A DNA stretch of 27,026 nucleotides from a bacterium (GTDB lineage Bacteria; Cyanobacteriota; Vampirovibrionia; Gastranaerophilales; UBA9971), in contig JBAWVS010000033.1 in assembly GCA_037147175.1 (NCBI GenBank), forward strand, positions 1 to 27,026, in the 5' to 3' direction. The position numbers were made by a program, and so were the translations under genes. A model generated the notes under the pieces. The model searched no databases. It was not told where the DNA came from and saw nothing but the letters and a program-made list of their open reading frames with translations. Position 1 is the stretch's first letter; each line of letters starts with the position of its first letter. This document shows positions 3,495 through 7,793 of the stretch, one piece after another.

Positions 3495-4403
3495 TTAGTG
3501 ACACGGACAATTTGACCCGCAGTTACCGGCTAATGATGCAGCAACGTAAGCCTGTAAAATATTTGTTTCGTTTATTTCAACCGAAACGGCTTTTCTGCTT
3601 CCGTCTTTGTAAACTACTAGAATTGCCGGAGGAACAGACTGAGAAGAAACTGAAGTGTAGTCAGGAGATGTGGTTCGTAATGTGTATAAGCCGACTTTGA
3701 TGTTTTTGGAACTTAATGCCTTTTGAGATTTTAGAGCAGCAGATTTAGTTTCATCACTTATACTTGTGTTATTTTTTGCAGGAATATAGATAAAAACGGC
3801 ATCTTGTTTTAAAGCAGCCAGATTCAGTTGACTCACTGAATCTATGTATTCTCCCAATATTTTAGGAGAAGAAGTTGTCTGGTTTTTTACTGAATGTATT
3901 GCATTTTTTGCTTTAGATAGACTAAGTTCACCTGCATTTGCTTTACAAAACGACTTGAAAAGTAGAATAGCAATAATAATAACCAGAACAGCTACAAAGA
4001 TAATTTTTTTTGATTTATTGCTGACATCAGTTTGATGACAATCGCAATCAGCACCGCAAGCTTCCACAACCGGGATAGCTTCTTGAGCGGTGTCTTCTTT
4101 TAATTCAATTCCGCATATTTTTGCCAATTTAGCTCGATTCGGGTATTCGCCCTTGTAAACAATTTCATTATTCACAATAATAAGCGGAAGACATTCATTT
4201 CCTTCAGTTTCAAGTGCCTTTTTAACAACATCATTATTGGCAAAAGCAGCAGGTTCAAACGAAAGACCATATCTTTCGACTTCAATTTCTTCTTTTTTTA
4301 ACCATTCCAAATCACCGGCAAATTTAACCAGCCTTGTATCGACGTTAGTTCCGCATACACCGCTGGTACAGCACATCGGGGGATCAAATACTTGTAATTT
4401 CAT
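3495..4403 (-). CDS. arsD: ArsD metallochaperone fused to a membrane segment and periplasmic Cys-tailed domain
   Basis: A 302-residue protein. Residues 1-105 are ArsD, the arsenite metallochaperone that hands As(III) to ArsA; the metal-binding cysteines are present at 11, 12 and 17 (MCCTSGVC), one position off the E. coli numbering, and a CGADCDC cluster at 116-122 replaces the usual C-terminal ArsD cysteines. E. coli ArsD ends near residue 120; here a positively flanked transmembrane helix (133-149) follows and then about 150 further residues with a thioredoxin-like strand/helix pattern (VFIYIPAK, PPAILVVYKDG) but no CXXC, ending in NCGSNCPCH. The topology predicted is N-terminal ArsD inside, C-terminal domain outside. 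A strong AGGAGG precedes the ATG. It lies 12 bp after arsA, in one operon. Confidence 0.88.
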   Translation of the reverse strand: MKLQVFDPPMCCTSGVCGTNVDTRLVKFAGDLEWLKKEEIEVERYGLSFEPAAFANNDVVKKALETEGNECLPLIIVNNEIVYKGEYPNRAKLAKICGIELKEDTAQEAIPVVEACGADCDCHQTDVSNKSKKIIFVAVLVIIIAILLFKSFCKANAGELSLSKAKNAIHSVKNQTTSSPKILGEYIDSVSQLNLAALKQDAVFIYIPAKNNTSISDETKSAALKSQKALSSKNIKVGLYTLRTTSPDYTSVSSQSVPPAILVVYKDGSRKAVSVEINETNILQAYVAASLAGNCGSNCPCH

Positions 4404-4415
4404 AATAATAACCTC

Positions 4416-6203
4416 CTAAGTTAATTTATTTGTATCAAACATTAATATTTTTAAATTATTCGCACCGACTAATTCATCGGCAACCCATGGCGAGATCACT
4501 GTTCTTTTTGATAAAGTTTTTGTAATTTCACCAATGTAATTAAGTTCATGTAGCCCTTTTGCGCAAAGTGTCGAGTCAGTCGTTCCCGAGACGGCAAAAC
4601 TTCGGTTTATTATCCAGCCGTAAGGCTCAATATTTGCTCTTCTTAAATCATTTTGTAAAGCCTCCGCTTCGTGGGTAGGAGTTGCTTCAGGCAGAGCAAC
4701 AATCAAAACTCTTGTATATTTAGGGTCACGAATTCTCGGTAGAAGTTCTTTAACCTCATCAGGCAAATCATCGGCAGTTTTTGCAACTTCACGATGATAG
4801 GCTTCTGTTGAATCAAGTAAAAGTAAAGTATGTCCTGTTGGAGCAGTATCCAAGACTATGAATTGCCCGACTCCTTTTGCAACTGTTTGAGCAAAAGCCT
4901 GAAAAACTGCAATTTCTTCAATACAAGGTGAGCGTAATTCTTCTTCAAGCAAAGCCATATCTTCAAGTGAAAGCTTGCCTCTGTTTTTTTCTATAACTCC
5001 GCAAACATATTTTTCAGTTTCTGTTTTTGGGTCTATTCTTTCAACGTGAAGATTAGGAATGTTTTCGCCGATAGTTTCGGTAACATGAGCCGCAGGATCG
5101 GTAGTTGACAGTACTACGGAGTTTCCACGTTGAGCCAATTGGGTTGCAATCATTGCAGCCATAGTTGTTTTACCTACACCGCCTTTTCCCATAGTCATGA
5201 TGACACCGCAACCTTCTGCTTCTAATTCATTGAGGAATTTAGTCCACGGCTCCGAATTTTTAATAACCTCTGCTGTTTTGACTTTTAAATCTTCCGCATT
5301 GACCATATCAGAATCATCCGCACTGTTATGACAAACACTTTGCAGAGCATTAATTCCCATTACGCCTGAAGGTCGAAAAGGAACAGTCGTTGTCGGTAAA
5401 GTTTTAAGTTCTTCCGGCATTAAATCAAGTGAAACTTTTGATTTATCCGTAAAAGCTTTGGCTATTTTATCATCAGAATCTTTAGTAAATAATCCGTTAA
5501 TAATCAAATGCTGATTACTAAGCCCGAGTTCTTTTAATTCAAGACTTGTTCTATTTGCTTCAGTAAAACTCATTGTTTCAGCCCGTGAAACCAGAACGAG
5601 CAAAGTTTTATCAGGATTTTTTAAAGAATTAACAACTTGCTCAAAAATTATTTTCTGATCAGCAAGTCCCGAAATCGGTCCTAAACAAGAACTGCCTGTT
5701 TTATTGCTTTCTATAAAAGCATTCCATGCAGATGGAAGATTAAGCAAACGCAGTGTATGACCTGTCGGAGCTGTATCTAAGACCACATGATCGTAATCTT
5801 TTATTTCTTCATCGTTACCGATAAACTTGGAAAACTCATTAAAACCGGCAATTTCTACAGTGCAGGCACCTGAAAGCTGTTCTTCCATCTGCTGAATAGT
5901 TGCATCCGGAAGTACGCCTCTATAAGGTCCGACCATTCTTTCTCTGTATTCTGCCGCCGCATCAATCGGATTAATATTCATAGCATACAATCCTGAAACA
6001 CCTGTTACTTCTGTGGGTGTTGAACCAAGTTTTGTTTCCAGAACTTCATCTAAATTTGAAGCAGGGTCTGTACTTATCAATAATATTCTTTTTCCCGTTT
6101 CTGCAAGCCCAACAGCTGTAGTGCAAGCCATTGATGTTTTACCTACACCGCCTTTGCCTGTAAAAAACAGAAATCGTGGTGCTTTAGTTAATAAATTTTT
6201 CAT
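4416..6203 (-). CDS. arsA: Arsenite-translocating ATPase ArsA (two-domain)
   Basis: A 595-residue ATPase with two homologous halves, as in E. coli ArsA (583). Walker A motifs GKGGVGKT are at residues 16-23 and 338-345, and DTAPTGHT appears once in each half. The three As(III)-binding cysteines are conserved at 114 (SGACTVE), 173 (SSCLGP) and 426 (SPCIEE). ArsA energises an arsenite pump in the membrane and receives arsenite from ArsD. I chose the ATG at 6203 over an in-frame ATG at 6218: it aligns with the E. coli N-terminus and has GGGA upstream, while 6218 has no SD. First gene of the minus-strand operon, divergent from arsR and driven by the operator-overlapped promoter at 6289-6316. No ArsB or Acr3 partner occurs in the window. 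Confidence 0.96.
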   Translation of the reverse strand: MKNLLTKAPRFLFFTGKGGVGKTSMACTTAVGLAETGKRILLISTDPASNLDEVLETKLGSTPTEVTGVSGLYAMNINPIDAAAEYRERMVGPYRGVLPDATIQQMEEQLSGACTVEIAGFNEFSKFIGNDEEIKDYDHVVLDTAPTGHTLRLLNLPSAWNAFIESNKTGSSCLGPISGLADQKIIFEQVVNSLKNPDKTLLVLVSRAETMSFTEANRTSLELKELGLSNQHLIINGLFTKDSDDKIAKAFTDKSKVSLDLMPEELKTLPTTTVPFRPSGVMGINALQSVCHNSADDSDMVNAEDLKVKTAEVIKNSEPWTKFLNELEAEGCGVIMTMGKGGVGKTTMAAMIATQLAQRGNSVVLSTTDPAAHVTETIGENIPNLHVERIDPKTETEKYVCGVIEKNRGKLSLEDMALLEEELRSPCIEEIAVFQAFAQTVAKGVGQFIVLDTAPTGHTLLLLDSTEAYHREVAKTADDLPDEVKELLPRIRDPKYTRVLIVALPEATPTHEAEALQNDLRRANIEPYGWIINRSFAVSGTTDSTLCAKGLHELNYIGEITKTLSKRTVISPWVADELVGANNLKILMFDTNKLT

Positions 6204-6288
6204 TTTTTGTTTTCCCATTCATATAATTAATAAGTTAAGTTGAATAAAAAATAAATTCTTCAAGTTGATAAAAATACTTACTAAATAT

Positions 6289-6467: not shown

Positions 6468-6761
6468 GTGAACAATGAAATTCTGAAAAAATATAAAAGG
6501 CGGTCGGAAATTATAAAAGCCCTTGCTCATCCGACAAGATTGTTTATTATTGATTTTCTTTCAGAGGGCGAAAGATGCGTTTGTGAAATTGTAGAGCAGG
6601 TAGATGTGGATATATCAACTATTTCAAAACATTTATCGGTTATGAAGAACGCCGGTCTTGTTGAAGATGAAAAACGAGGACTTAATGTTTTTTATAAAAT
6701 GACCTGTCCTTGTATTTTAAATTTATTCAACTGCTTAGAATCTATAAGTAATAAAGATTAA
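6468..6761 (+). CDS. arsR: ArsR-family arsenite-responsive repressor
   Basis: A 97-residue winged-helix protein of standard ArsR length. KALAHPTRLFIIDFL (about 17-31) and the recognition region DVDISTISKHLSVMKNAGLV (46-65) are typical. The metal-sensing pair Cys37-Val-Cys39 sits where E. coli ArsR has Cys32/Cys34; the third E. coli cysteine (37) is a valine here, and Cys80, Cys82 and Cys89 in the C-terminal helix may complete the site. It represses until As(III) or Sb(III) binds. The start is GTG at 6468 with no close SD (the nearest, GGGA, is about 16 nt away), so a weak or leader-dependent start is likely. It is divergent from arsA across the operator. Confidence 0.92.
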   Translation: MNNEILKKYKRRSEIIKALAHPTRLFIIDFLSEGERCVCEIVEQVDVDISTISKHLSVMKNAGLVEDEKRGLNVFYKMTCPCILNLFNCLESISNKD

Positions 6762-6882: not shown

Positions 6883-6888
6883 TTTTAT

Positions 6889-6894
6889 TAAATA
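6889..6894. repeat. Left target-site duplication copy
   Basis: TAAATA directly outside the left terminal repeat of the insertion sequence, matched by TAAATA at 7788-7793 outside the right one. In AT-rich DNA a 6-bp match could be chance, but both copies abut the terminal repeats exactly. Confidence 0.5.
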
Positions 6895-6924
6895 ACTTGA
6901 ATTGCTAGATAGCCGAACTAAGCT

Positions 6925-6957
6925 CTAACTTAATGTTGTAGCAGCAAAGAATGGCAT
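6925..6957 (-). pseudogene. Transposase C-terminal tail, left behind by inversion
   Basis: Read on the minus strand from the ATGCCAT formed at 6957-6951, this encodes MPFFAATTLS and a TAG (6925-6927). It joins in frame to the ...RVRKMP end of the inverted core when the inversion is undone, supplying the native C-terminus. Confidence 0.7.
6951..6957. repeat. Inversion breakpoint repeat, left copy
   Basis: ATGGCAT here and its reverse complement ATGCCAT at 7331-7337 flank the inverted 373 bp (6958-7330). The identity is exactly 7 bp; the next bases differ on both sides. Confidence 0.75.
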
Positions 6958-7337
6958 AAGCGTAATAGAAGCAATAAGAGGAAAATATGCTAAAAGTTTT
7001 AGAAACGGCAGAAAAGTTTATTCAACAAGCAAAAAGTGTTGGTATTTCGGATTTTTACTTGAAATGATAATTGATGCTGATGGAAAAATTTCATATGTAA
7101 GTATCGGAAAAGAAGCCGAGGTAAAGCAACTTCAGAATTTACTTGAAGATTTAAAGGATAAATGGTTACTCGGCGACAGAGGCAATAGAAATGCTAAAGT
7201 ATGGCAACAATTTTGGGAAGATAAACAGATAAAAGTTAAGATTACAGGCGGAAAAGAGCGTCAATGGATTGAAAATGTTTTTGGATTTTTAAAGACAAAA
7301 CTCGGACTTGATAAAATCCGAGTTCGTAAAATGCCAT
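6951..7337 (+). pseudogene. Inverted transposase core and C-terminal region
   Basis: This segment reads on the plus strand while its N-terminal partner reads on the minus strand. In frame it encodes GISVIEAIRGKYAKS, then CWYFGFLLEMIID, then WLLGDRG (second catalytic Asp) and RQWIENVFGFLKTK (catalytic Glu), up to RVRKMP. The open frame continues to 7516, but everything after 7337 is the complement of the N-terminal half and has no meaning. The segment lacks its own start: the ATG at 7064 is internal, and upstream codons continue the family sequence back to 6951. Confidence 0.8.
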
Positions 7338-7686
7338 CATTTTTAGCAAGACTTACTGTTGTCCCGTCTGCAATAAGTCCAAAGCTGTTTAAATTAGCAA
7401 GTTTTTGCATTATTACAATCAAATATTCGCTGTTATTGTTGAATAATCTTGTAATTCTTGAATATTCAGGAATGTTCGGAAAAAGATGTTTAAAATTGTG
7501 TAAAAGCCAAAAATGAAAGCGCTTTAGGTCCCAAAAAGGTTTTAATATCGGATGTAAAATCATTAATGTTAATATTTCAGATTCGTTTAATTTGCCTGCA
7601 GGTCCTGGTTTTAAATCAATTTCTATTGATTTGATAATTTCATCAATAATTGCGAAAATACTTATTGTTAAGTCAATATCATTCAT
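7331..7686 (-). pseudogene. Transposase N-terminal fragment
   Basis: Starts with ATG at 7686 and encodes 118 genuine residues of an IS982-like transposase. They include ESEILTLMILHPILKPFWDL, FKHLFPNIPEYSRITRLF and GLIADGTTVS, whose Asp should be the first of the DDE triad, ending at SLAKNDG. The frame stays open a little further (to 7261), but past 7331 it reads the back of the inverted core. Rejoined to 6951-7337 and 6925-6957 it forms a single 253-residue frame. An SD-like GGGGA precedes the ATG and lies in the stem of the hairpin at 7690-7724. Confidence 0.8.
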
Positions 7687-7689
7687 GAA

Positions 7690-7724
7690 AAAATCCCCAT
7701 TAGTTAGTACCTAATAGGGATTTT
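7690..7724 (-). promoter_or_regulatory. Hairpin over the transposase ribosome-binding site
   Basis: A 14-bp stem with one mismatch (7690-7703 with 7711-7724, 7-nt loop) just upstream of the transposase ATG and inside the element. Read on the minus strand, the promoter-distal arm CTAATGGGGATTTT contains the SD-like GGGGA. Transcripts entering from outside would fold and hide it. On the plus strand the same hairpin followed by TTTTCGTTTA could act as a terminator. Confidence 0.5.
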
Positions 7725-7787
7725 CGTTTATTTGCATAACATGTTTCAAAATTTACTTATTTAGCAATTTGATTTAGCAATTCGAGT

Positions 7788-7793
7788 TAAATA
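7788..7793. repeat. Right target-site duplication copy
   Basis: TAAATA directly outside the right terminal repeat, matching 6889-6894. Confidence 0.5.

Follow-up and report, generated by a model that had tools for sequence, protein, structure and literature searches.

How does a transposase gene come to be read partly from one strand and partly from the other, and what does its breakage mean for the elements that share its ends? We address these questions in the window, the whole stretch of 27,026 nucleotides analysed, which is the entire contig C33 of a draft genome (2.66 Mb, 109 contigs) of an uncultured Gastranaerophilales-type bacterium. The original prediction was that a recent 373-bp inversion (6958-7330) between 7-bp inverted repeats had split the gene, and that undoing it cleanly restored a full-length frame.

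The element and its three-piece transposase

We detected a complete IS982-like insertion of 893 bp at 6895-7787, bounded by ACTYGAATTGCTA in inverted orientation; its IS982-type ends, 13-bp terminal inverted repeats starting with AC, are flanked on both sides by a TAAATA target duplication (Table 1). An ArsR-type regulator gene (6468-6761), itself adjacent to arsD/arsA, borders the insertion on one side and a tRNA-Glu gene on the other. In the two same-genus genomes searched for an empty site, conservation of the right flank starts only at about 8015, which makes the comparison uninformative. On the minus strand, 3495-6218 carries an arsD-like gene and arsA, both near the plus-strand regulator that sits directly beside the insertion; the arsD-like product has 302 aa, with the ArsD domain confined to the first 122.

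Searching relatives with the catalytic core recovered an uninterrupted frame at 80% identity in a same-family genome (G004), that of Candidatus Melainabacteria bacterium GWF2_37_15. This gene (L010/L027, MFRL01000016.1) encodes 260 aa on a single strand and is the closest IS982-family copy found, its protein being 83% identical to the two main pieces of the window gene. Its 13-bp ends are near-identical to those in the window, and both copies have 6-bp AT-rich duplications, TAGTTA on either side of L010 and TAAATA in the window; L010 is intact, whereas the window copy has an inverted core. As predicted, the N-terminal part reads on the minus strand and the core on the plus strand. BLASTN placed window 6956-7354 on one strand of L010, and 7352-7685 plus 6885-6959 on the other, the matches meeting within a few bases; in a second relative, L014, the core-to-tail joint falls at the same place, 7354 meeting 6959. 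In the native arrangement, the joints read ...IADGTT-VSVIEAIRG... and ...KMPSFLARL-YAILCCYNIKLELSSAI-stop.

Table 1. Coordinates of the insertion, the pieces of its transposase gene and the inversion junctions in the window.
Feature	Position	Strand	Basis
Target-site duplication, left copy, TAAATA	6889..6894		identical to 7788-7793
Terminal inverted repeat, left, ACTTGAATTGCTA	6895..6907	+	12/13 identical to right end
Native C-terminal tail, YAILCCYNIKLELSSAI + stop	6905..6958	-	last 17 residues of L010; 72% identical to L010 tail, same register; stop TAG at 6905-6907 overlaps left terminal repeat
Left junction, TAAG	6957..6960	+	flip scan and BLASTN; breakpoint within 6956-6962
Inverted core, native SVIEAIRG...KMPSFLARL, second Asp and Glu	6959..7354	+	L010 residues 112-243; 83% identity, 132 codons, dN/dS 0.07
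Right junction, CTTA	7352..7355	+	flip scan and BLASTN; breakpoint within 7350-7357
N-terminal 110 codons, MNDIDLTI...IADGTT, first Asp	7357..7686	-	L010 residues 1-110; 83% identity, 110 codons, dN/dS 0.10; starts at ATG 7686
Terminal inverted repeat, right, ACTCGAATTGCTA on minus	7775..7787	-	paired with left end
Target-site duplication, right copy, TAAATA	7788..7793		same 6 bp as left copy

Among NCBIfam profiles, NF033520 was the best match for L010 (8.8e-31, with 107 bits that fall short of its curated equivalog cut-off of 130 bits) as well as for both the core and the N-terminal part in the window. The core matched the NCBIfam IS982 profile at E 9.5e-17, and plasmid-annotated IS982 transposases were 27-31% identical over about 85%. 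The window copy is a broken member of the IS982 family, not a working one. L010 carries the DDE catalytic triad in a single frame, whereas the window has its first Asp on the minus strand and the remainder on the plus strand. Because this separates the first Asp from the other two catalytic residues, transposase activity would have been lost.

A split layout could in principle be the normal architecture of such elements, as each half forms an open frame. L010, however, reads intact from a single strand, and the other relatives found (L011, L012, L013, L014) each gave a single-strand reading with none split like the window. The only loci with matches on both strands were copies of the window itself, and we rejected this explanation, which retains practically no probability.

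Two further loci in the GWF2_37_15 genome are incomplete. L012 (G004:C76, 1435-1948) is a second copy with an internal deletion of residues 100-150, defective by a route other than inversion. L025 (G004:C48, 233-574) is a fragment from the N-terminal end of a paralogue (47% identical) that stops at DGTTIS, at the same codons as the inverted copy, and is followed by about 230 bp to the contig end without transposase homology; this recurring position is probably due to chance.

Breakpoints of the inversion

To place the breakpoints, we inverted each segment that starts within 6940-6975 and finishes within 7320-7370 (1836 flips) and aligned each result to L010. The assembled order scored 227 and the ATGGCAT flip 726 (index 1334 of 1836), while the best flips, running from 6956-7357 to 6962-7350, scored 841. 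The inversion is therefore about 391-402 bp long, between 6956-6962 and 7350-7357, and the homology common to its two junctions is only 3-4 bp (TAAG/CTTA). The window is also one base short against the native frame. This base went missing before the inversion or in the course of it, and merely flipping the segment back would therefore not bring the C-terminal tail into frame.

These results uphold an internal inversion and revise its anatomy. The repeats ATGGCAT (6951-6957) and ATGCCAT (7331-7337) are present as claimed, and flipping 6958-7330 does reproduce 253 open codons plus a stop over 6925-7686. Scored against L010, that 373-bp flip is nevertheless ruled out as the ancestral state: the right breakpoint lies at 7350-7357 rather than 7330, the right-hand ATGCCAT sits inside the inverted core, and the relevant repeat is the 4-bp TAAG/CTTA in place of the 7-bp pair. 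The native protein had about 260 residues ending in YAILCCYNIKLELSSAI, not 253 ending in FFAATTLS; the peptide SLAKND at the proposed joint is the antisense of native SFLARL, FFAATTLS is native YAILCCYNIKLELSSAI read out of frame, and with one base missing the joint is not clean. The 762-bp stretch contains 59 inverted 7-mer pairs, and 3 of 45 flips between inverted 7-mers, the ATGGCAT flip included, gave a 253-codon frame. Since 2 of the 44 other flips did so as well, the open frame is not diagnostic of the breakpoints. An open restored frame is thus weak evidence for where an inversion ended, and here only the intact relative fixed the true breakpoints.

Origin and age of the inversion

The reading that best accounts for these observations, and that we hold to be very probably correct, is that the complete 893-bp IS982-like element was inactivated by one internal inversion, some 0.4 kb of its gene having been flipped in a one-off event at 3-4 bp of microhomology (TAAG/CTTA). 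Breakage and rejoining at TAAG/CTTA with one base missing would produce the arrangement, and its likely route is either strand switching in replication or the mending of two closely spaced breaks; homology as short as 3-4 bp at the junctions, together with the missing base, fits either end joining or template switching. We infer the presence of the inversion in the living cell, its single occurrence and its biochemical route. An inversion is an ordinary kind of mutation and the element belongs to a known IS family. Our literature searches found no report of IS-internal inversions and none of insertion sequences in Gastranaerophilales. Viral contigs contained neither transposase relatives nor the junction sequence. 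L010, at only 83% identity over the two main pieces, limits how closely the sequence before the inversion may be reconstructed.

A draft assembly could carry chimeric or minority sequence, and the cell may have an uninverted gene that was misjoined during amplification or assembly. Multiple displacement amplification chimeras are mostly inverted joins at short complementarity over short distances (PMC1855051), and this genome is a draft in 109 contigs. Such chimeras carry intervening deletions, however (PMC1855051), whereas an artefact here would need a reciprocal pair of junctions with the loss of just a single base. The genome yielded no second copy that could have been mixed in, which makes repeat collapse an unlikely origin for the junctions. 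A microhomology of 3-4 bp is also far below the overlaps normal in assembly. Taken together, we consider an artefact quite improbable.

Intragenic invertible segments are known in bacteria, and the original prediction had listed a reversible switch turning the transposase on and off beside a one-off event and an artefact. The two outer parts and the core, though inverted, have each stayed intact, which would suit a switch, and the window shares with invertons, intragenic ones included, a segment lying inverted, here inside a gene. Invertons are flanked by inverted repeats of 10-40 nt (PMC11892184), whereas only the 4-bp TAAG/CTTA was found at the breakpoints; the junctions do not match what a site-specific recombinase working on repeats of that length would leave. 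With the missing base, re-inversion would not restore the tail, and the inverted order occurs in no relative. A switch is thus highly improbable, and the best supported of the three options is a one-off event at a repeat of only a few bases.

The one-off inversion also appears to be recent, as predicted. Neither coding piece contains a stop or frameshift, and this absence of decay suggests a young, though undated, inversion. The dN/dS values against L010 (Table 1) cover both lineages and so reveal constraint before the inversion; they point to a transposase that was probably under constraint until recently.

Short elements sharing the same ends

The 19-bp end pattern occurred at 93 sites in the same genome, compared with 2 for the reversed control. 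About 40 short elements of 105-180 bp have ends and a 6-bp duplication in common with the broken element, whose left-end sequence is also common to L010 and 31 short elements. One 132-bp element had about 40 substantial matches in the genome, 79-100% identical. At least two length classes were seen, of about 133 and 167 bp (for example, L065 1501-1634, L041 1501-1669 and L044 1501-1669). The 6-bp flanks were exact in 10 of 32 paired-end elements, the window element included, against a mean of 1.7 and a maximum of 7 when right flanks were shuffled 2000 times; in 23 of 32 they were at least 5/6 identical (shuffled mean 8.0, maximum 16).

By structure, these short elements can be classed as MITEs, and their common ends and duplication length, on which the link is based, suggest that they probably depended on the transposase of the broken element. 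A direct precedent is ISCca4, an IS982-family element with many short non-autonomous derivatives (MITECca01) sharing its terminal repeats within one genome, that of Cardinium cOegib (PMC9769881). MITECca01 is about 240 bp and intact parent copies remain in Cardinium (PMC9769881), whereas the short elements here are 105-180 bp and the only transposase gene detected is broken. The inverted copy was the only transposase of this kind detected in its genome, though multi-copy elements drop out of draft genomes where contigs break, and an intact one may have been missed. The other IS982-profile match in this genome (L108 on C13), a 282-aa frame, matched weakly and had no such ends in the stretch read, and we set it aside.

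The same terminal ends occur across the bacterial family. Another same-family genome (G006) has 322 terminal-repeat sites, many of which form pairs spaced by about 150 bp or lie close to contig ends; no relative of this transposase, or IS982-type transposase, was detected there.

Implications for the element and its family

The locus offers a clean, apparently recent case in which an insertion sequence was killed by an inversion of the microhomology type. The link to MITEs is the more interesting part: common ends tie the broken IS982-like element to a family of MITEs that occurs widely across this bacterial family, and the locus could serve to study the fate of MITEs after transposase loss. 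We suggest, tentatively and as a rather unlikely outcome, that the inversion disabled the lineage's last working transposase, freezing dozens of dependent MITEs in one step; a weaker variant is that a reversible inversion throttles MITE movement. If the last working transposase was indeed lost here, the inversion would mark a datable end of a MITE burst.
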